A stretch of DNA of 50,569 nucleotides, taken from assembly GCA_012839765.1 (NCBI GenBank), contig DUMW01000058.1, forward strand, positions 1 to 50,569, read 5' to 3'. The notes beneath the pieces are model-generated. The model searched no databases and had not been told where the DNA came from. It saw only the letters and a program-made list of their open reading frames with translations. The translations under genes were made by a program, and so were the position numbers. This DNA is from Bacillota bacterium (lineage in GTDB: Bacteria; Bacillota; Limnochordia; DUMW01). Positions 157-49,998 of the stretch are shown here, piece after piece (the stretch's first letter is position 1; each line of letters begins with the position of its first letter).

Positions 157-510
157 GTGTTCTCCCGGAATGGGTAGTGTCTAGAGGTTGAAAGTTCGAG
201 ACGGCGAAGGTAGCAGTAGTCCTAGCTTAACACACGGGTGTCCATCGGTAGGTGCAATCCGAAGGAAGTGGGCGGCAAACCTCCGGCCGGACGAGCAGGA
301 AGTACATAAGCGGCTAGCAGCGGTTGGATGAGCTTGCCAAAATGGGACGAAGTCCTTGAGTAGACTTGGCGGGTGGATCAAGGGAAAGACAGTACTCTTA
401 CCCGGGGACGTCTGCCGGGAACATCCGCGGACGCCTAGTGGAACACATTGTCATCTGGTCCAAGGGACGTCCGGTCAGCTAACATCGTGGCTACCCCTTA
501 AATCCCTGGG
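157..510 (+). mobile_element. Group IIC intron 5' fragment (domain I only)
   Basis: The sequence follows domain I of the Oceanobacillus iheyensis-type group IIC intron, as I recall it, over most of its length. Matching stretches occur in order: a GTGT start with CCCGGnATGGG, GTAGCAGT and GCTTAAC, GGGTGTCC, GAAGGAAG, GGGCGGCAAACCTCCGG, a TGGATGAG-TTGC block, CAAAGTCCTT-like ACGAAGTCCTT, AAGGGAAAGAC, and CTTACCCGGGG-CGTCTG. Similarity fades after the GTCAGC...GGCTACC segment near 510. No reverse transcriptase/maturase reading frame follows, and I find no domain V (the usual 34-base hairpin), so this is a 5'-truncated-type relic without catalytic core and cannot splice on its own. The right boundary is approximate. 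Confidence 0.85.
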
Positions 511-37034: not shown

Positions 37035-39557
37035 ATGTACAAAAAGTGGGGTCTACAAAGGGGATTGACGGTCGCTTCCGTTTTCCTACTCATTGCAGTG
37101 ATGGCAATGACGGCAGCTGCCCAATCCCTAGAATCGATCACGTATAACAATCCGATTGACATTGGTATAGCGGATCCATGTGTTATCCGAGCTTCAGACG
37201 GCAGGTTCTATCTGTACAGCACCGGGTTGTCTGTTTGGTCCTCCGATGACTTGGTGAATTGGAAACGGGAAGGAAGCGTAAAGCCGGCCAACACGTGGGG
37301 CGTGGCAGATTTTTGGGCTCCGGAGGTCATTGAGTACGAAGGCAAGTTCTATCTCTTCTATTCAGCGGAGCGTCCCCAAGGCGGGAAGCGAGTGGCTTTG
37401 GCGATTAGCGACAGTCCCATCGGGCCCTTTGAGGATTTAGGTCATCCCCTCTTCGATTTCGGCTATTCCGCTATCGATGCTAGCCCGTTCATCGACGACG
37501 ACGGTCGGAAGTATCTGTTTTATTCAAAGGATCAAGTGGGTATTGGCGGAGGGCGTTACGAGAGTTCCATCTACGGGGTTGAGCTCAGTGATGACTTTAC
37601 CTCTGTGGTGGGAGAGCCAGTCCTTTTAATCAAACCGGATCAAGCTTGGGAGCTGCTCTCCGGGAACCGCCTGTGGAACGAAGGTGGCTACGTCGTCAAG
37701 CATAACGGTAAGTACTATTTGATGTACTCGGCCAACTACTACGGTGGCGTCCACTATTCTGTCGGGTACGCGGTATCCGAGCATCCTTTAGGACCCTATG
37801 TGAAGTATGCAAATAACCCTGTTCTTTCCCGGGGACCCTGGGTCGGGGAGCTTTCAGGGACTGGACACCATAGCGTGGTACGTTCTCCCGATGGAACAGA
37901 GCTGTTCATCGTCTACCACGTACATGCTGATCCGGCGGTGGGTGGCGGAAACCGTCGCCTGGCCATTGACCGCATGGGCTTTAGACAAGATGGTAGCATT
38001 TATGTGAGTGGTCCGACCTTGACACCGCAGCCGAAACCCTCGGGAACTACGCCCCTGGTAAATCTGGCGGCGGAGGCCGTTGTGACCGCTAGTTCCGTGA
38101 GAGTTCCCTATCGGGTGGATGCCCTAAAGGACGGGGAAATCGTGACCCAGATCAAGAATGCCCAGTATGATTGGGCAAGCAACGACGGCGAAGGCACCTG
38201 GGTTCGGTTCCAATGGCCGACCCCGAGAAGGATCAAGTACCTCTTCTTGTACGGCAGTGTAATGGGGACGCGGATTGAACAAGCCACCGTATCTTACGGA
38301 ACGGGCGACGAGGTTGCGGGGCAGGTTACCACTGAAATGTTCCCGCTGGAGCCGGGCGTGGCCGTTGTAGTAACACTGCCAGACAATGAAGACATCAGTT
38401 GGATTGAGATTTCCATCGATAAACTGGTGAATCCGGCCGGAACTGCGGCCCTGAGTGAAGTGATGGTTTTGGGTTATCCCGCAGGGATGGTGTGGATTTC
38501 CTCCTTCAACGAGGGAGACACCCTTACGGAAGTGACTCCCGTATCTGTGGAAGCCCCGGGGATACCGGTGAAGTGGGTACAAATTGCCATGAACGAGGAA
38601 ATCTGGTATGAAGACGATGTTCTACCGACAGGGCTCATCCTCGATCCTGCGCAGCTGGAGCGGGGCTATTATCGCCTATCTGTTAGCTTGGTGGATCAAC
38701 ATGATACAGAATATCAGTACGATACCGGATTCCAAGTGGAGCATGCTCGGTTGGTCACCCCTGACCCGGGGGCACGGCTTAGTGGAGAAGTGCTTTTGGA
38801 GGTTGCTCCTGTTATCCCGGACCAGGAGTTAGCCCAGGTGGAAATCGTGGTGGAACGGTTCGTCGCCGATGAGAAGTTGATTGTCTTCGATACCACTGGT
38901 GTAGATCGGATTTCTTTCCAGACCACTTCCCTACCATGGTCGGGTGCGCTTAACACCTTGGCTTTAGAGGATGGGGCCTATGACATTGCTATCCATGCCA
39001 CTACTGTCCATGGTGTTCGGTCCGAAAGAAGAGAGCGCGTGGTTGTCAGCAACTGGACCGTACTAGAGGATCATCTGCTGCCTCCGAAGAACCTGGGGTT
39101 GTTTGGTATCCTTGAGTCCCTGAAGACCTCCGACAAGTCCAAAGGATGGGCCTATACCGATGTCAACCCGGAATTGTTTTCCGGTGATCGGGATCGCATG
39201 CTGCGTAGTAGCAATACCGATGAGTATTTGACCTGGAATTTGTCCAATCTGTATCGTGGTATCTTAACGGTGTACAGTAAGTATCCGGAAATCGAAGGCA
39301 GTGTAAGGGTGGAGGCTTCGCCCGATGGCAATGATTGGTACCCGGTTATCTGCGAAACGGAGATCATCAGGCCCGGAACTGAGGACAACCCGTGGTGGGA
39401 ACTGAAAGTGATCGCTACGGTGCCCACAGACCTCAAGGCGGAATTCCTCCGGGTGGTCTTCACTGCCCAAGGGTTACCTAAGGATGAGCTGCAACTAGGT
39501 TATGTCCGTCTAGTGGGGTTACAGGATGCCGTTAACGTACCTTTGATTGTCGATTGA
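37035..39557 (+). CDS. Secreted multidomain GH43-type glycosidase
   Basis: 840 residues behind GGGAGGAG. After a signal peptide (ending MTAAAQ) comes a five-bladed beta-propeller of family 43 (about 35-335): IGIADPCVI supplies the catalytic base Asp47, SAIDASPFID the pKa-tuning Asp148, and WNEGGYV the acid Glu216. A discoidin/F5-8-type domain (about 341-484) and two Ig-like domains (about 485-570, 571-671) follow, then a terminal domain (673-840) that reappears in the GH115 protein. GH43 enzymes release arabinose, xylose or galactose from plant polysaccharides; the exact sugar is not deducible. It heads an operon of glycan-degrading genes. Confidence 0.9.
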   Translation: MYKKWGLQRGLTVASVFLLIAVMAMTAAAQSLESITYNNPIDIGIADPCVIRASDGRFYLYSTGLSVWSSDDLVNWKREGSVKPANTWGVADFWAPEVIEYEGKFYLFYSAERPQGGKRVALAISDSPIGPFEDLGHPLFDFGYSAIDASPFIDDDGRKYLFYSKDQVGIGGGRYESSIYGVELSDDFTSVVGEPVLLIKPDQAWELLSGNRLWNEGGYVVKHNGKYYLMYSANYYGGVHYSVGYAVSEHPLGPYVKYANNPVLSRGPWVGELSGTGHHSVVRSPDGTELFIVYHVHADPAVGGGNRRLAIDRMGFRQDGSIYVSGPTLTPQPKPSGTTPLVNLAAEAVVTASSVRVPYRVDALKDGEIVTQIKNAQYDWASNDGEGTWVRFQWPTPRRIKYLFLYGSVMGTRIEQATVSYGTGDEVAGQVTTEMFPLEPGVAVVVTLPDNEDISWIEISIDKLVNPAGTAALSEVMVLGYPAGMVWISSFNEGDTLTEVTPVSVEAPGIPVKWVQIAMNEEIWYEDDVLPTGLILDPAQLERGYYRLSVSLVDQHDTEYQYDTGFQVEHARLVTPDPGARLSGEVLLEVAPVIPDQELAQVEIVVERFVADEKLIVFDTTGVDRISFQTTSLPWSGALNTLALEDGAYDIAIHATTVHGVRSERRERVVVSNWTVLEDHLLPPKNLGLFGILESLKTSDKSKGWAYTDVNPELFSGDRDRMLRSSNTDEYLTWNLSNLYRGILTVYSKYPEIEGSVRVEASPDGNDWYPVICETEIIRPGTEDNPWWELKVIATVPTDLKAEFLRVVFTAQGLPKDELQLGYVRLVGLQDAVNVPLIVD

Positions 39558-39588
39558 CGATGCCTACAAGAAGGGGAGGGCACAGAAT

Positions 39589-40650
39589 ATGAAACGAAGA
39601 TTATCCCTGGCGTTGACGGCAATAGCCGTTGTGGTCCTGACTGTACCGGTCTTTGCCCAAAGGGTAGATATCCAGGAGCGGGCCATGCATGTAGCCCGCG
39701 AAGTGGCCAAGATTAGCATCAAGCCCCATTTCGACTGGTTCTATTCTGGGGTGATTGCCCTGGACGGTGGTCTGCGGGTCTACGAGGCCACTGAAGACGA
39801 ACTCTTTTTGAAAATGGTGCTGCTGTGGGGTGACGAGTTTGTCAACGGTAACAGACAGATTGCCACTGGCCATGTGGACAAAGACATGCCCGGTCTAGTG
39901 GCCCTGAAGCTTTATCAGTATACCGGCAATCAAGGGTACCTTGATCTTGCCAATCGGAACATTGTAGACTTGGTCTTTGGCGCTACGCGGGTGGTGAATC
40001 ATAGCAGATTCTGGGCCGACGATTTGTACATGGTTTGTCCTATGTTGGCCCTGGCTGGTAACATCCTGGACAGACCCGAGTACTTTTCTTTGGTGGTAAG
40101 CCAGTTTGAAGCCTACAGAGAAGCGTTATTGAAGGATAATGGTCTCTACCAGCACACCTTTAGTGTGCCCTATGCCTGGGGACGGGCTAACGGCTGGATC
40201 GCGGTGGCCTTGGTGGAATGTTTGAAGTTCATCCCTGAAGGCTTTGAAGGATGGGGCACACTCCTGAAGATGTATCAGGAATATATGGACACCATCCTAC
40301 GTTTTCAGGATGAAGAAGGTATGTGGCACCAAGTGCTGGAGTACCCCGAATCTTACCAAGAAACCTCCTGTACGGCAATGTTTGTATATTCCCTGGCCGC
40401 TGGTTGTATTAACGGATGGCTCCCAGAGCAGATTAGTGAGGAGGCGAAGGAGGCCGCCTTCCGTGGTTTTGAGGCATTGTTACAAAGGTTGGATCCATTG
40501 TATCGTCTGAAGGACATCTGCGTCGGGACTAACGCCGGTGATACACTGGAATACTACTTCGAACGACCCACCCGGGCTGGTGATTGGCACGGTATGGCTC
40601 CCCTCATGTGGGCCTGTGTGGAGATTGCGGAGTTGGCTGCGTTGGAGTAG
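39589..40650 (+). CDS. Exported GH105 unsaturated glucuronyl/galacturonyl hydrolase
   Basis: 353 residues from the ATG 9 bases after AAGGGGAGG; an in-frame ATG at 39547 would hide the signal peptide (LSLALTAIAVVVLTVPVFAQ). The (alpha/alpha)6-barrel family GH88/105 is indicated by SRFWADDLYMVCPMLALAG (with the conserved catalytic-type Asp), WGRANGWIAVAL, ETSCTAMFVYSLAAG, and the ending DWHGMAPLMWACVE. Such enzymes remove 4,5-unsaturated uronic acids produced by polysaccharide lyases, by hydration of the double bond. Bacillus YteR is cytoplasmic, so an exported version is a little unusual. It implies that a lyase acts earlier on the same polymer. Confidence 0.88.
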   Translation: MKRRLSLALTAIAVVVLTVPVFAQRVDIQERAMHVAREVAKISIKPHFDWFYSGVIALDGGLRVYEATEDELFLKMVLLWGDEFVNGNRQIATGHVDKDMPGLVALKLYQYTGNQGYLDLANRNIVDLVFGATRVVNHSRFWADDLYMVCPMLALAGNILDRPEYFSLVVSQFEAYREALLKDNGLYQHTFSVPYAWGRANGWIAVALVECLKFIPEGFEGWGTLLKMYQEYMDTILRFQDEEGMWHQVLEYPESYQETSCTAMFVYSLAAGCINGWLPEQISEEAKEAAFRGFEALLQRLDPLYRLKDICVGTNAGDTLEYYFERPTRAGDWHGMAPLMWACVEIAELAALE

Positions 40651-40770
40651 GTTTAAGGCTTACAGCAGGACCTGACAGTTTCGGGTGGCCGAATCCTTGG
40701 GTAAAACCTTACTGCCAATTAGTGCCGATAAGGCGGTCCGTACCTGCGAAACGTTGGTCTGATGCCATGT

Positions 40771-40799
40771 GGGGGCTCCTCGGCCTTTCCGGAGTCCCC
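40771..40799 (+). terminator. Stem-loop after GH105
   Basis: GGGGGCTCC pairs with GGAGTCCCC (one G-U) around an 11-base loop, about 120 bases after the stop. No T-run follows. Confidence 0.4.
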
Positions 40800-40932
40800 G
40801 GGACGGCGTCTTGACCGAAAAGTGGATCTGGAGTAAGATATACTTACCTTTAAACGAAATATGGAAGAAGATTCGGCGATCTGGAACTTCGGGTCCTGTC
40901 ATAACTGTAAGATATGAAACATATTCCGATTT

Positions 40933-40990
40933 GGAGGAGGTGAAGGCAGGACGCTTTTGTGTTCTAGATCGGACAAAATATGATATAAGT
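40933..40990 (+). promoter_or_regulatory. GCAGGA...AATAT element, copy D
   Basis: GGAGGAGGTGAAGGCAGGAC, then T-rich DNA and GGACAAAATATGATATAAG. It shares the GGCAGGA start and downstream GAA/AATA part of the operator-like repeats but lacks GAAAACGAATGCG. It lies about 170 bases before the solute-binding-protein gene. Related element: 50224-50259. Confidence 0.35.
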
Positions 40991-41158
40991 TCACGATTGT
41001 CTCAAGGATGTCATGGCTCAGAAAGCGTGTTGGGGGAAACAACACATTTCTCAGGCGTACACGTGAGTGTCTTGATGATGAACTCAGAAGGTGAAGCTTC
41101 ATAGACTTTGTAGTTGCCGGCAAACTCTGAACCGGAGAACGAAAGGAGATGCGGGATC

Positions 41159-42433
41159 TTGAAAAAACGTTTCATTTTCTGTCTAGCTATTTCGCTGGTC
41201 TTTATTCTGTCCCTTGGAGTAAGCGCGGAAAAGACCGTAATCCGCCACTCCCACGATGTGTATAATCAGCGGGATTGGACTGCCTGGTTGGAAGCGGCCA
41301 AGCTGAAATTCGAAGCTTTGAACCCCGACATTGAGATCGAGATCATTGTCCACGGGCGGAATGAACAGCGGGAGAAGTTCTTGCTCACGCATGGTATGGA
41401 GGAAGGGGCCGATGTGATGGAAGTCCTTTCCTCGGACCACTACAACTTGGCCACTGTCGGCTTGTTTGACAATATCGACCCCTTCATCGAGAATGACTCG
41501 GAGATCTCCTGGGAAGACTTTCTCCCCATCGCCGCACAATGTGCTACGATGTTCGACGGACCTATGGAGGGTGGCCATTGGTTCCTGCCCATGTCCCTGT
41601 GGGTAATCGGAGCCGCCTTTAACGACACCCATTTCCAGGAAAGTGGCGTGCAGGTTCCCTCCCGGTACAACTACACCTGGACCTGGGACGATTTCGCTGA
41701 TATTGGACGGAAGCTCTTGCGGATGGATGCGGCCGGAAATGTGACCCGCTGGGGCGCTACCTATTCCCATTGGCGCACCTGGATCCACAATGCGGGTGGA
41801 TTCATGTATGAACCGTACATCAACCCCACTCAGATCACGATGAATACTGAAGCGGTACGGCAGGCTCTGGAGTTCTTGCAGAGGGTGACTTCCATCGAGC
41901 GGATCGCGGCGTATCATCCCTATCCCGAGCCCTTTACTGCACAAGAGATCTCCATATTCCTGCACGCAGGGCCGTCGATTACACCGATCCTGCGACGGAA
42001 CAACGTGAACTGGGAATGGTCCTTCGGACCGAATCCGAAGTTGGAACGGGCCGGTAGTGAGATTGTTAGTATCGGTTTTGCGATTAGCTCTGGTTCCAGC
42101 AAGAAGGAAGCGGCTTGGCGCTGGATTAAGTTCCTGGCCACTGAAGCGGCTGTTGACCACATCATGGTCACCGGGCGGCCGGCGGCATGGTTGCACGCGG
42201 TTGCTGACTACCAGGCCTACTTCCCCATGGCTTCTCCCTGGGAGTATGTCTGGATCGAGCTTCTGTCGGATCCCGACAGCTATATCCGACCCGTCGTGGA
42301 CGATGATGTAGGCAGGATCATCAACGATCATGTCTGGTCCGTCATCCGGGGTGAAGTGGCGCCTGAGGTAGGTATAGCCCGGGCCCAGGAACAGGCCAGT
42401 ACCATGTTGCAGTTGAAGGGATTGGCTAAGTAG
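41159..42433 (+). CDS. ABC transporter sugar-binding protein
   Basis: 424 residues from a TTG 11 bases after AAGGAG; the overlapping ATG at 41149 is in another frame. The signal peptide (KKRFIFCLAISLVFILSLGV, cleavage near SAEK) is followed by a family-1 solute-binding fold: LEAAKLKFEALNPDIEIEI, EGADVMEVLSSDHYNLATVGL, the hinge region FLPMSLWVIGAAFNDTHFQES, and YTWTWDDFADIGRKL. Aromatic residues are frequent, as in oligosaccharide binders. Like the binding protein at 12221 it has no permease beside it. It probably captures oligosaccharides made by the neighbouring hydrolases. Confidence 0.92.
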   Translation: MKKRFIFCLAISLVFILSLGVSAEKTVIRHSHDVYNQRDWTAWLEAAKLKFEALNPDIEIEIIVHGRNEQREKFLLTHGMEEGADVMEVLSSDHYNLATVGLFDNIDPFIENDSEISWEDFLPIAAQCATMFDGPMEGGHWFLPMSLWVIGAAFNDTHFQESGVQVPSRYNYTWTWDDFADIGRKLLRMDAAGNVTRWGATYSHWRTWIHNAGGFMYEPYINPTQITMNTEAVRQALEFLQRVTSIERIAAYHPYPEPFTAQEISIFLHAGPSITPILRRNNVNWEWSFGPNPKLERAGSEIVSIGFAISSGSSKKEAAWRWIKFLATEAAVDHIMVTGRPAAWLHAVADYQAYFPMASPWEYVWIELLSDPDSYIRPVVDDDVGRIINDHVWSVIRGEVAPEVGIARAQEQASTMLQLKGLAK

Positions 42434-42476
42434 GAAGTCCCTATTTTTAAGTCAGCACGCAGTTTGCAAGTGAAGA

Positions 42477-42505
42477 ACCGAGGGCGACGGTTTGTTGCCC
42501 TCGGT
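42477..42505 (+). terminator. Stem-loop between solute-binding protein and GH115
   Basis: ACCGAGGGCGAC pairs with GTTGCCCTCGGT (12 bp, one G-U) around a 5-base loop. No T-run follows. Highly expressed binding proteins are often separated from downstream genes by such stabilising stems. Confidence 0.6.
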
Positions 42506-42557
42506 GACTTCACCTAACGGGGAGCGACTGGACTAGGAAGGGGGCGAGGGTGTAACG

Positions 42558-45362
42558 ATGCGTAAGGCTTTCATTGTTTTTAGCTTTGTCTTGTTGGTTA
42601 TCGCAGTGGCGGTGGGAAGTAGTTTTGCCGAGGGTTGGACTGAACCTATTCGGGGATCCTGGGTTGTGGAACCAGGGGAAGAATCGGCTGTTTTGTTGGT
42701 GAACGGGAACCGAAGTTGTGAAATCGTAGTGTCTACAGTGGAACACTCGGCTGTGCAACAGGCGGTAACCTTCCTTGTCCAAGATTTGACTAAGATCACC
42801 GGTGTGACCCCGCAGATTGTGGAAACTCCCTCCGAGGAGGCATTGGCCCGGATCCATGTGATCACTCTGGGGGTTGGTGATGTGCCGGAGGCGGTGGACG
42901 AAGCCTTCTTGGCGGGAAAGTGGGAAGCCTTTCAGATTGTAACCGTTGATCAAGACGTTTATCTTGTTGGTTCCAATTTCCGAGGTACAGCTTTTGCGAT
43001 ATACACATTGAGTGAACGGTTGGGCATTGATCCCTTGTATCATTGGACGGGCTATGAACCAGAAAGACACAATCCCCTGAGGATGAAACAGGTGGATTAC
43101 CTTTCCGATTCGCCTACCTTCAGATACCGTGGCTTGTTCCACGACGATGAGGATATTCTGCCTCGCCCCATCGATCCCAGTACTGGGTACCCATACATTC
43201 GGGGTGAAGTTCCCATCGAGTGGTACGAAAGGTATTTTGAGACGGCCCTTCGGTTGAAGATGAACATGGTAGTTCCCTTCACAAGGGCATATCGCAACTT
43301 TGCTGTGCAAAAGATGGCCAGTGATTGGGGATTGTACTACAGCGGCCAACACTACGACATATTGATCTCTAACCCCTATGGTTTTTCCAAGCACGGACTG
43401 GCGGAACAGCGGGGGATCAGCGGTGGTTATGATTGGTTTAGCAACCGGGAAGGGATCATCGAGTATTGGAAGGCCGGAGTCCTGGAAAACCGTGAATTAG
43501 ATTGCATTTGGCCCATTGGCATGCGGGCTACCGATGATTATCCCTATAGTTTCCCGCCAGGCACCACCGATGAGGAGAAGATTGAGATTTATAACGAGAT
43601 CTTTGCCTTGCAGGTGGAGATGGTGAAGGAGCTTCTACCCCCGGATAAAGAACCCATCTTCCATTTTACCATGTATAACGAGATGCTGGATCTCTATCAG
43701 AAGGGCAAGTTCAAGTTGCCCGAGGGGGTCATCTTGGTCTGGGATGATGACGGTGACGGTGTGATGCGGGCTTTGCCCACCGAGGAAGACCATCGAATTA
43801 ATGACAAGCACGGGGTTTACTACCACCTGGCGTTTTTCGGTTGGTCTGCCAAACAGACAATCCACACCGTTACCCCGATGCGCATTGAGCAGCAGTTCCG
43901 GAACATTGTTGACGCGGGCGCTACAGAGTATTTGTTGGTCAACGTTTCTGAGCTGCGGGAGCACGTTATGGAGGTCCGGATGATCGCCGATATCGCCTGG
44001 GATGCGGAGAGTCACCTCAGTGGCCCCAATTCGGCTTACCGGTTTGTGGAGTGGTGGTGCCAAGAGTATTTTGATACGGCCTATCTGCCTGCCTTCAACT
44101 CCTATTTTAATTACTATCGGTTGATGGGTTCCTTCGACCGGGTCTGGTATGGTAGTGGCCATGTGTACAGCATGGTCCAATCCCTGTATAAGAAGTTTGC
44201 CGGAGAGTCCTACAACCAAGTGGGCGGGGGTACTATTGCCGCTCTGGCCGAGAGGGAAAAGGATTTTGAACGGGCTCTGGAATTGGCCCGGCAGGCGTCA
44301 GAGCTGATGACGCCGCAACAACGTCAGTTCTTTTATGAACATGTGCAGTTCGGGATGCTTATCGACTATCGACCGGTGCAGGCCGCTTTGAAACTGAGCG
44401 AAGCCCTGAGGGAACCCAATCTTGATCGGGCTTTTGCAATTTGCCTAGAGGCCTTTGAGTACTTGAAGCAGTTGGAAAGGGAGATCCTGAAGGCGGAACG
44501 GCCGCCTTTCGAGGAATGGTATCGGTCTACGTGGATTCGGGTTTCGGACTATCATCATTCCTGGAGTTCCATGAATCCACATCGTGCCTATTTTGTGCTG
44601 AGGGATTTCCTCACGGAGACGGGTGGAGTACAGATCAGGAGTCCTCGGCCGGCGGAGACCGTTAGTGGCGAAGTGCCAGTGGTGTTCAATACGAGTTCAC
44701 CTCGTTTGGTCCCCGTGACTCTGGTCGTGGAATTGGATGACCGAGAAATATATAGGGGTTCGACAGTGCCGCAACAACTGAGTTTCGACAGTACGTTGTT
44801 TGCCGATGGGCCGAAGACCCTGAAGCTGACTGCGGTCTATGACGAGGAGTATCTGGTCTGGTCCCAAGAGGTACCTATTGCCATTGCTAACCGGTGGACC
44901 CTTTTCGATCCTTTGAGAGCTCCCCAGGCGACCTTGTTCGGAGTCATCAACCATGACAAGGTTTCCTCGAAGTCGGAGGGTTGGGTATATCGGCAGGACT
45001 CACCGCAGCTGTTTTTCCGAGATGAGAACCGGCTCACCAGAGAGGCCGATACCACCGAGTATCTCATCTGGGATACTCCAAAATTGCAGCTGATACAGGC
45101 CACCATCTACGTACAGCCTGCAATGGCGGATAGGGTGAGGGACGTTGTATGTTTTGCCGTCTCTAAAGACGGGCAATCCTGGGAGGAACTGCCCTATTCC
45201 ATCGTGCAACAGGATGCCAATGACAGTTGGATCAAACTTGAGCTGTCGGCCGCGGTCGATGGAAAGTCGGGATATGAACGTTTTAGATTGACCCTGGTGG
45301 AAAGTGGTTTTGCAGGTGACTCGTTGCAGATTGGTGAGCTGAATTTCCAAGGTCTGAACTAA
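42558..45362 (+). CDS. Secreted GH115-family alpha-glucuronidase-like enzyme
   Basis: 934 residues with a signal peptide (FSFVLLVIAVAVGSSFAEG). The N-terminal domain and TIM barrel match GH115: FRYRGLFHDDED (about 187-198), MNMVVPFTRAYRNFAV, SDWGLYYSGQHYD, MRATDDYPYSFPPGTT, HFTMYNEMLDLYQKG, ILVWDDDGDGVMRALPT and VYYHLAFFGWSAKQT. GH115 enzymes cut (4-O-methyl-)glucuronic acid side chains from internal xylan residues. Residues 691-777 form an Ig-like domain and 778-934 a module shared with the GH43 protein. The usual GH115 C-terminal domain is thus replaced or extended. AAGGGGGCGAGG precedes the ATG. The substrate could also be another glucuronylated glycan. Confidence 0.87.
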   Translation: MRKAFIVFSFVLLVIAVAVGSSFAEGWTEPIRGSWVVEPGEESAVLLVNGNRSCEIVVSTVEHSAVQQAVTFLVQDLTKITGVTPQIVETPSEEALARIHVITLGVGDVPEAVDEAFLAGKWEAFQIVTVDQDVYLVGSNFRGTAFAIYTLSERLGIDPLYHWTGYEPERHNPLRMKQVDYLSDSPTFRYRGLFHDDEDILPRPIDPSTGYPYIRGEVPIEWYERYFETALRLKMNMVVPFTRAYRNFAVQKMASDWGLYYSGQHYDILISNPYGFSKHGLAEQRGISGGYDWFSNREGIIEYWKAGVLENRELDCIWPIGMRATDDYPYSFPPGTTDEEKIEIYNEIFALQVEMVKELLPPDKEPIFHFTMYNEMLDLYQKGKFKLPEGVILVWDDDGDGVMRALPTEEDHRINDKHGVYYHLAFFGWSAKQTIHTVTPMRIEQQFRNIVDAGATEYLLVNVSELREHVMEVRMIADIAWDAESHLSGPNSAYRFVEWWCQEYFDTAYLPAFNSYFNYYRLMGSFDRVWYGSGHVYSMVQSLYKKFAGESYNQVGGGTIAALAEREKDFERALELARQASELMTPQQRQFFYEHVQFGMLIDYRPVQAALKLSEALREPNLDRAFAICLEAFEYLKQLEREILKAERPPFEEWYRSTWIRVSDYHHSWSSMNPHRAYFVLRDFLTETGGVQIRSPRPAETVSGEVPVVFNTSSPRLVPVTLVVELDDREIYRGSTVPQQLSFDSTLFADGPKTLKLTAVYDEEYLVWSQEVPIAIANRWTLFDPLRAPQATLFGVINHDKVSSKSEGWVYRQDSPQLFFRDENRLTREADTTEYLIWDTPKLQLIQATIYVQPAMADRVRDVVCFAVSKDGQSWEELPYSIVQQDANDSWIKLELSAAVDGKSGYERFRLTLVESGFAGDSLQIGELNFQGLN

Positions 45363-45417: not shown

Positions 45418-46107
45418 ATGCGCAGGTACACTCTTACGCTTATGGCCTTATTGGTCTGTTTAATGTTCAGTGGTTGCTTCACGAAGAAGCAAGAGCCCGT
45501 GGAGATCACCTTACCCTTTACGTTGGATCTGAGCCAAGTGGAAGAGGGGACCCTTCCTAAAGAGATCAGGGTTATTACAGGTGACTGGAAGGTTATCGAT
45601 AACGCTTTAGAAGTAAACTTCCCGCCGCAGTCAGGGGAAGGATTGGGAGCCTTCTTGCATTTCCGTGGCCTTGAGTTGGCAGATTTTGATATGCGGGTAA
45701 GTATTAGTTTTGAAGCGGTGGATAGCGATAGTCGCTTCGCCATGTTGCTTTTCCGGGCCGACCACCTAAACCTGCCACGGCACAAAATACAGGTGCGTCG
45801 GGGTGGAACCAGGGCCGACGGTTTGCGTGTCCTATTCAGGAATGCCGCAAACACAAGTAAAGAGCAAGCCCGAGCCTCCTATAGTGAAAACTTCGAACTG
45901 GGTGAAGTCTACGATTTCCGTCTGGCGGTATGCGGGAACAAGGTTAAGCTTTTCATAGACGACAACCTCGTGTTCGATGTGGAAATTGCTGAGGAAGAAT
46001 GGCATAAGGACAAGGGCGCCGTTGGCTTGGGTGTATTTGGTGGCCGTGTGCGCTTCAGTAACATCAGTATCGACAGTATCACTCCGGAAGAGTTCGAAGC
46101 TCTGTAA
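45418..46107 (+). CDS. LamG-like lipoprotein (paralogue 1)
   Basis: 229 residues behind AAGGGAGGA. The leader ends MFSGC, a lipobox. The mature part is a beta-sandwich resembling DUF1080/LamG concanavalin folds: LPFTLDLSQV, GDWKVIDNALEVNFPP, GLGAFLHFRGLELADFDMRV, DSRFAMLLFRAD, and the closing GAVGLGVFGGRVRFSNISID. The proteins at 48420 and 49315 share all these blocks. No catalytic site is evident, so a surface glycan-binding protein is the likely role. It sits between the GH115 and GH2 genes in the same direction. Confidence 0.82.
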   Translation: MRRYTLTLMALLVCLMFSGCFTKKQEPVEITLPFTLDLSQVEEGTLPKEIRVITGDWKVIDNALEVNFPPQSGEGLGAFLHFRGLELADFDMRVSISFEAVDSDSRFAMLLFRADHLNLPRHKIQVRRGGTRADGLRVLFRNAANTSKEQARASYSENFELGEVYDFRLAVCGNKVKLFIDDNLVFDVEIAEEEWHKDKGAVGLGVFGGRVRFSNISIDSITPEEFEAL

Positions 46108-48419: not shown

Positions 48420-49094
48420 ATGAATAGACATCTGGTTGTGAGATGTGTACTGGTAGCAGCTTTCGTTTTGCTTGTAGCAGGTGTGGCCCTTGGTGCTACT
48501 TTGCCCTATGAAGTGGACTTATCCAACGTACCCAATGGTAGTCTACCGCCTGGATGGTATCCTTTGAACGGTGATTGGCAAGTTGTAGATGGGACCCTGG
48601 AAGGCTACTATCCTCCCGCGGCCGGTGACGGTCAGGGTGCCTTCATCTTCATCCCTAACCTGATGGTGGATGACTTCGATCTTCAGTTGACCATGGAGTT
48701 TAAGTCTGCTGCCCAGGGCTCTCGGTTTGGTGCTATCATGTTCCGTAGCGCCCCCGCCACCGGTGCGCCTCGTCACAAGTTGCAGATCAGACAGCGGACT
48801 ACGGACCGTAATGGTATCGGTTTGCTGTACCGTGACTCTGACAAGAAGGCCACCCGGATCGGTGAAATGCCCCTGCATCACGATTTCGAGCTGAATACCC
48901 CTTACCGGGTGCGACTGGTGGTGTTCGGCGATCGCATTAAACTCCTCATCGAGGATACTCTGGTCATGGATCTGACCGCGAGGACTTACCTGCAAAAGGG
49001 AGGCATCGGTTTTGTGGTGCATGGTGCCACCGTGCGCTTCAGTAACATCCGGATCGATTCGGTGGATGAGGAGAAATTCAACTCCATATACTAG
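48420..49094 (+). CDS. LamG-like secreted protein (paralogue 2)
   Basis: 224 residues behind AAGGGAGAAAGG. The signal peptide (LVAAFVLLVAGVALGATL) has no lipobox, unlike paralogues 1 and 3, so this copy is soluble outside the inner membrane. It shares LPYEVDLSNV, GDWQVVDGTLEGYYPP, DDFDLQLTMEF, GSRFGAIMFRS, RHKLQIRQ and VRFSNIRIDSV with them. No catalytic residues are recognisable. A freely diffusing version of a binding fold that is otherwise membrane-anchored repeats the pattern seen in the left locus (7813 and 8613). Confidence 0.82.
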   Translation: MNRHLVVRCVLVAAFVLLVAGVALGATLPYEVDLSNVPNGSLPPGWYPLNGDWQVVDGTLEGYYPPAAGDGQGAFIFIPNLMVDDFDLQLTMEFKSAAQGSRFGAIMFRSAPATGAPRHKLQIRQRTTDRNGIGLLYRDSDKKATRIGEMPLHHDFELNTPYRVRLVVFGDRIKLLIEDTLVMDLTARTYLQKGGIGFVVHGATVRFSNIRIDSVDEEKFNSIY

Positions 49095-49314: not shown

Positions 49315-49998
49315 ATGCGTAAATACGGTCTTGTCTTTGTTGCATTGCTGGTTTGTCTGGTGCTAAGTGGATGTTCTGAGCACGAGGGCACCAAGATCAC
49401 CTTGCCCTATACGTTGGATCTGAGCAAAGTCAGTGAGGGTAGCATCCCCAGGGAGATGCAGGTCTTCGCGGACGAGTGGCAAGTGGTAGACAATGCTTTG
49501 GAGGCCAACTTTCCTCCTAGGGCTGGAGATGGATTAGGTGCTTTCATCTATTTCAAGGGTCTTGAGGTAGCCGATTTTGATCTTAGCGTAACGATCACCT
49601 TTATGGAAGTGGACAGCGACTCGCGTTTTGCCGGCATCCTTTTCCGTTCAAACGCCAATAGTAACTTGCCACGCCATAAGCTGGTTATCCGTCAGGGTGC
49701 GGCAAGCCGCAGTGACGGAATTGGTCTAAGGTTCAGGAGTAGCTTCGATGAGCCGGAGTGGATCGAGCGGGATCGGGCCTTCTATGACCTTGAGTTGGGG
49801 CGGCCCTATGATGTGCGAGTGGTGGTTTGCGGTGACCAGGTCAAACTGTTCATCGATGGGATCCGGGTGAAGACCTTCAACACCGACAAATGGCACAGTG
49901 AGACGGGCTCCATTGGCTTTATGGCCTTCGGCGGCCGGGTCCGGTTCAGCAATATTCACATTGCGCCGATAACCCCTGAGGAATTCAACAAACTTTAA
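49315..49998 (+). CDS. LamG-like lipoprotein (paralogue 3)
   Basis: 227 residues from the ATG behind AGGGGGG; a longer frame from 49210 would place 35 polar residues before the leader and is unlikely. The leader ends LVLSGC, a lipobox. It is closest to paralogue 1: both share LPYTLDLSKV / LPFTLDLSQV, NALEANFPP / NALEVNFPP, GLGAFIYFKGLEVADFDLSV, VDSDSRFAGILFRS, and the ITPEEF ending. The putative role is surface glycan binding. It is the last gene of the right locus and is followed by a terminator. Confidence 0.82.
   Translation: MRKYGLVFVALLVCLVLSGCSEHEGTKITLPYTLDLSKVSEGSIPREMQVFADEWQVVDNALEANFPPRAGDGLGAFIYFKGLEVADFDLSVTITFMEVDSDSRFAGILFRSNANSNLPRHKLVIRQGAASRSDGIGLRFRSSFDEPEWIERDRAFYDLELGRPYDVRVVVCGDQVKLFIDGIRVKTFNTDKWHSETGSIGFMAFGGRVRFSNIHIAPITPEEFNKL

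Follow-up and report, generated by a model that had tools for sequence, protein, structure and literature searches.

A previously unnamed two-domain tail, an Ig-like domain followed by a jelly-roll domain, closes otherwise unrelated proteins in a lineage of Limnochordia, where it forms a lineage-restricted family with a high copy number and diverse catalytic partners. We propose, at a little under an even chance, that this module is a lineage-specific C-terminal tether to one common target, probably on the producer's own surface or matrix. The window (the whole 50,569-nucleotide stretch analysed, contig DUMW01000058.1) encodes two such proteins, with the gene for an exported GH88/105 protein that lacks the module sitting between them. 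The features concerned are as follows.

37035–39557, forward strand: exported GH43 protein, 840 aa (signal peptide, GH43, DUF7402, an extra Ig-like stretch, then the module)
37143–37997 (nt), forward strand: GH43 domain of the GH43 protein (Pfam PF04616, E = 1e-60)
38061–38468, forward strand: DUF7402 of the GH43 protein (PF24135, E = 8e-12)
38745–39050, forward strand: module domain 1 of the GH43 protein, Ig-like, residues 571–672 (AlphaFold2 pLDDT mostly >90; family Ig profile)
39051–39518, forward strand: module domain 2 (CTD) of the GH43 protein, jelly roll, residues 673–828 (HMM, AlphaFold2, Foldseek)
39519–39554, forward strand: 12-residue tail beyond the CTD of the GH43 protein (low pLDDT; no motif common to other members)
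39547–40650, forward strand: exported GH88/105-type unsaturated glucuronyl hydrolase without the module (PF07470, E = 9e-61; signal-peptide-like N-terminus by eye)
41114–42433, forward strand: family 1 extracellular solute-binding protein (PF01547, E = 2e-16)
42558–45362, forward strand: exported GH115 protein, 934 aa (signal peptide, GH115, helical part, then the module)
43107–44120 (nt), forward strand: GH115 domain of the GH115 protein (Pfam PF15979, E = 1.7e-73)
44628–44894, forward strand: module domain 1 of the GH115 protein, Ig-like, residues 691–779 (alignment with the GH43 tail; family profile)
44895–45353, forward strand: module domain 2 (CTD) of the GH115 protein, jelly roll, residues 780–932 (HMM, AlphaFold2, Foldseek)
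45418–46107, forward strand: PF06439 (LamG-fold) lipoprotein (E = 1e-8)
48420–49094, forward strand: PF06439 paralogue with a signal peptide and no lipobox (E = 8e-13; sequence read)
49315–49998, forward strand: PF06439 lipoprotein (E = 5e-9)

The signal peptide of the GH43 protein was assigned from its hydrophobic N-terminal stretch. The CTD of the GH115 protein stops 2 residues before the C-terminus, and no Pfam match to GH115_C (PF17829) was found in this protein at E ≤ 1; in it (42558–45362), the module takes up the C-terminal position in which a GH115_C domain was to be expected. At the start of the window (241–396) lies a match to the group II intron family RF02001 (57 bits; cut-off 32).

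The sequence-only reading had proposed that residues 571–840 of the GH43 protein and 691–934 of the GH115 protein carry the same module on entirely different catalytic domains. The two tails are indeed homologous (BLASTP E = 5e-21, 29% identity over 262 columns), their Smith–Waterman score of 208 lying far above that of shuffled sequences (mean 34, SD 5.4, maximum 65 in 1,000 shuffles), and the catalytic domains are distinct in Pfam (GH43, E = 1e-60; GH115, E = 2e-73). Most of the signal comes from the CTD, the last ~155 residues (pairwise score 176 versus a shuffled maximum of 55). The Ig parts are borderline as a lone pair (48 versus a shuffled maximum of 50), and in cross-validation, with a profile built from one half of the family and searched in the other, the Ig domain was found in 91 of 94 hosts. 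Several elements of the consensus first suggested for the CTD (LFG[IV], P-x-LF, D-x2-R and T-x-EYL-x-W) were right, and others were slightly out of register: the motif written as SK-x-GW-x-Y is actually K-S-[KE]-G-W-[AV]-Y, and WTVLEDHLLPP and WTLFDPLRAP align only with a one-residue gap. The GH43 copy compares at 48% with the copy on an M60 peptidase and at 32% with that on the neighbouring GH115 protein. Local duplication as the source of both tails was rejected because the GH43 copy has its nearer relatives on other contigs.

The architecture of the module is fixed: an Ig-like domain precedes a jelly-roll CTD of ~154 residues in nearly all hosts, as one Ig copy in 67 and two in 26. Among 100 core sequences, the CTD ended no more than 15 residues from the C-terminus in 97, the three exceptions being an ORF at a contig edge and two proteins whose CTD is interrupted by insertions; each protein carried one CTD, and no tandem copies were found. 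Conserved CTD positions are S30, G32, W33, D46, R49, E58, L60, W62, Y75, W96, R132 and G148, of which S30, G32, W33, D46, R49, E58, W62 and W96 are kept regardless of host. The CTD is acidic, with −7.2 net charges per 100 residues compared with −3.2 for the host parts. Comparison of the tails that follow the CTD revealed no sortase, transmembrane or other common motif and no conserved last residues.

AlphaFold2 predicts the GH43 tail as two beta-sandwich domains (pLDDT 92) and the GH115 CTD alone as a jelly roll (pLDDT 95, pTM 0.89). The Foldseek matches nearest to the predicted CTD were CBM51, CBM27, CBM6, CBM32 and CBM16, at TM scores of ~0.4–0.5 and with no closer relative, a resemblance that reaches the level of a general jelly roll only. 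The possibility raised at the outset of a match to an established CBM family was not borne out as far as Pfam, NCBIfam and PDB sequences reach (families defined only in CAZy lie outside this comparison): the module matched no family in these sets above cut-off, and 91 CTDs matched no NCBIfam family at E ≤ 0.01. F5/8 type C (PF00754) gave weak matches in 11 of 91 CTDs, the best at E = 0.0013 and below the gathering cut-off; the GH43 CTD of the window reached 14.5 bits against a cut-off of 28.2. The literature likewise yielded nothing specific on such a C-terminal domain in CAZymes of Limnochordia or Firmicutes.

The module is a family and not just a GH43–GH115 pair. In its own genome (2.56 Mb, 96% complete), a profile search returned 12 matches, two of them divergent, and a search with the GH43 CTD alone found 10 places. 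The module is present in 7 of 73 genomes of the class by profile search, and three related genomes from one family hold 22–32 matches each. Beyond the class, among 399 sampled genomes of the phylum, the first profile found only one further genome, that of a distant relative, and a broader profile gave a few weak matches. When 84,980 species were scanned with a pattern, only three genomes turned up, each of them a MAG from a digester (DTU080, AS04akNAM_18 and AS08sgBPME_369); as it relied on one 8-residue pattern from a 16-row subset of the alignment and misses most known copies, this low-sensitivity scan is no proof of absence elsewhere. Candidate stand-alone CTD proteins were rejected, the short ORFs turning out to be fragments at assembly gaps or contig edges. 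The own genome also holds a truncated module copy with an internal stop codon (L016, G000:C7, 555–860; a 96-residue ORF), a gene remnant or frameshift directly upstream of a GH16 gene with an intact module.

Divergent relatives are arranged differently. Two neighbouring lipoprotein genes of the own genome (L128, G000:C96, 671–1225 and 1238–4135) carry a divergent N-terminal jelly-roll copy; one of these proteins, 965 residues long, otherwise has an fn3 match only. A GH30-like protein from another class (L129, G334:C133, 1046–3634) carries two tandem, N-terminal divergent jelly-roll copies in a CBM-like arrangement.

The proposal that the module is a transferable unit is strongly supported by its occurrence on at least 25 sequence-unrelated host clusters, a count that, like the other host counts, rests on mechanically called ORFs in fragmented MAGs. 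Most hosts are polysaccharide-degrading. They include glycosidases (GH43, GH115, GH16, GH76, GH2, and GH123- and GH127-like), lyases (chondroitinase-B-type, pectate, heparinase-like and rhamnogalacturonan-lyase-like), SASA and DUF4886 esterases, M60 peptidases, metallophosphoesterases and a PD40 beta-propeller. The M60 (enhancin/mucinase-type) peptidases of the own genome that carry the module (L011, 4232–6607; L014, 22–2262) were unexpected in a plant-polysaccharide degrader. By a crude test, 77 of 93 long hosts have a stretch resembling a signal peptide; of the others, many are truncated or uncertain in their start. A lipoprotein regex matched 4 of 93, one of them the divergent L128. All four exported GH43 proteins examined (two in the own genome and two in a relative) carry the module, whereas the other four GH43 proteins have neither signal peptide nor module. 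Several exported beta-helix proteins lack it. Some hosts also hold ordinary internal binding domains (F5/8 type C, DUF7402), to which the CTD is therefore an addition.

We examined the genes beside the module genes for candidate partners. The LamG-like lipoproteins at 45418 and 49315 had been put forward as a possible cell-surface partner of the module, and in one relative PF06439 is itself fused to it (L056). As a general partner they were rejected: their close relatives were found in this window only, and they are missing from G399, G400 and G401, the three genomes richest in module copies. The three PF06439 paralogues (45418–46107, 48420–49094 and 49315–49998) form a cluster, are 39–55% alike and, across the 73 genomes of the class, have close relatives in this window only. 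Family 1 solute-binding proteins are the commonest neighbours of module genes (47 homologous ORFs in 7 genomes), and import therefore seems to use ABC transporters. Apart from these proteins, no partner gene recurred widely beside module genes in the loci compared from the 7 genomes.

Limnochordia is one of three diderm Firmicute lineages (PMC10665443), and the genes for LpxD, OmpH and LptF/LptG in the window make an outer membrane likely in this lineage. SLH proteins were found in all 7 module-positive genomes. Taken together, these features fit Limnochordia as the probable class.

In the tether that we tentatively favour, the Ig-like domain would be a spacer carrying a jelly-roll domain of glycan-binding (galactose-binding-like) type. 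We infer that the jelly roll binds, that its ligand is common to all hosts and that this ligand lies on the cell; such binding would bring the full complement of exported enzymes together in one location beside the importers, the most likely location being a glycan or another constituent of the producer's outer surface or matrix. A tether is favoured because the hosts share nothing but export, because the same residues are conserved whatever the host, because the module accompanies export on the GH43 proteins and because the jelly-roll model best matches glycan-binding modules; the last of these suggests a glycan as the type of ligand. One common target is a better candidate than each enzyme's own substrate because the module comes last, occurs once and sits on enzymes whose substrates are unrelated, including enzymes that do not act on carbohydrates. 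No other anchor is seen in the hosts, as few are lipoproteins and their tails have no sortase, transmembrane or common motif. Against a tether stand the general level of the fold match, the exported beta-helix proteins without the module and the lack of a conserved partner gene, other than those for solute-binding proteins, adjoining module genes. The divergent relatives are N-terminal or tandem, as ordinary CBMs are, and a shared ligand on the substrate side would explain much, given that most hosts degrade polysaccharides.

That last point leads to the less probable, although substantial, possibility that the CTD is a new CBM that binds a glycan common in the digested biomass and keeps enzymes on the particle. 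Cellulose-binding CBM2 and CBM3 occur on enzymes of many specificities, and the predicted fold, the Ig spacer, the predominance of CAZyme hosts and the CBM-like position of the relatives in L129 all fit such a role. The strict single-copy C-terminal position speaks against it, as do the non-CAZyme hosts (M60 peptidases, phosphoesterases and the propeller), the strongly acidic CTD, whose charge is unfavourable for pectin or glucuronoxylan, and the F5/8 type C domains that some hosts already have. Strict C-terminal placement on mixed hosts favours a surface anchor, and the fold fits a new CBM. We consider it unlikely that the tail instead directs export or sorting and is recognised by a machine for surface attachment or in the outer membrane; in that case, it would mark tens of enzymes per genome as cargo of an undescribed pathway in this diderm branch of the Bacillota, one that parallels type IX secretion in function but is not related to it. 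In favour of such a signal, the beta-sandwich pair is strictly terminal, single and shared by many unrelated cargos, an outer membrane is likely, and among GH43 proteins the module goes with export. However, the CTD matches no NCBIfam family, its last residues are not conserved, several exported proteins lack the module, and SprA matched in 0 of 7 genomes, in a search that had no positive control and in which no control genome matched either. Less likely still is a structural cap that has no ligand, the beta-sandwich pair serving purely to stabilise or space the protein. A structural role could suit the many conserved positions occupied by glycine or hydrophobic residues, but the same polar residues (S30, D46, R49 and E58) are conserved on hosts of unrelated fold, and GH43 homologues exist without the module.

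The closest functional parallel to the proposed tether is CBM37 of Ruminococcus albus, likened here by its described distribution and action and not by sequence. CBM37 is confined to that species, where each genome holds 51–102 copies, distributed over numerous enzymes as well as non-catalytic proteins; both polysaccharide binding and attachment of enzymes at the cell surface have been reported for it (PMC4081043, PMC4300822). The two are alike in being lineage-restricted, in reaching dozens of copies per genome and in being often C-terminal on glycoside hydrolases, polysaccharide lyases, carbohydrate esterases and non-catalytic proteins. Unlike CBM37, which occurs in tandem, also without a catalytic domain and in a monoderm, the present module occurs as one copy, always terminal and nearly always with an Ig domain, in a lineage with outer-membrane genes. 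The C-terminal domain of type IX secretion is likewise a beta-sandwich at the end of numerous exported CAZymes within a single genome (PMC5831590), but the CTD described here is different, larger and unmatched in NCBIfam, a library assumed to include the T9SS model. Jelly-roll CBMs (CBM6, CBM27, CBM32/F5-8 type C and CBM51) are alike in general fold by Foldseek but give no family-level sequence match, F5/8 type C matching weakly only. Dockerin–cohesin systems also place a common terminal module on many enzymes; however, no dockerin was present among the Pfam matches of the hosts, and the CTD is all-beta with 154 residues.

Together, these data point to a common tag by which the degradative enzymes of uncultured bacteria from digesters are addressed; no anchoring system has been named here for these bacteria. 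If the tether reading is correct, the module would provide a ready-made tag for enzyme display and a marker by which the lineage's exported degradative proteins could be found, even those hosts in which no catalytic domain is recognised.
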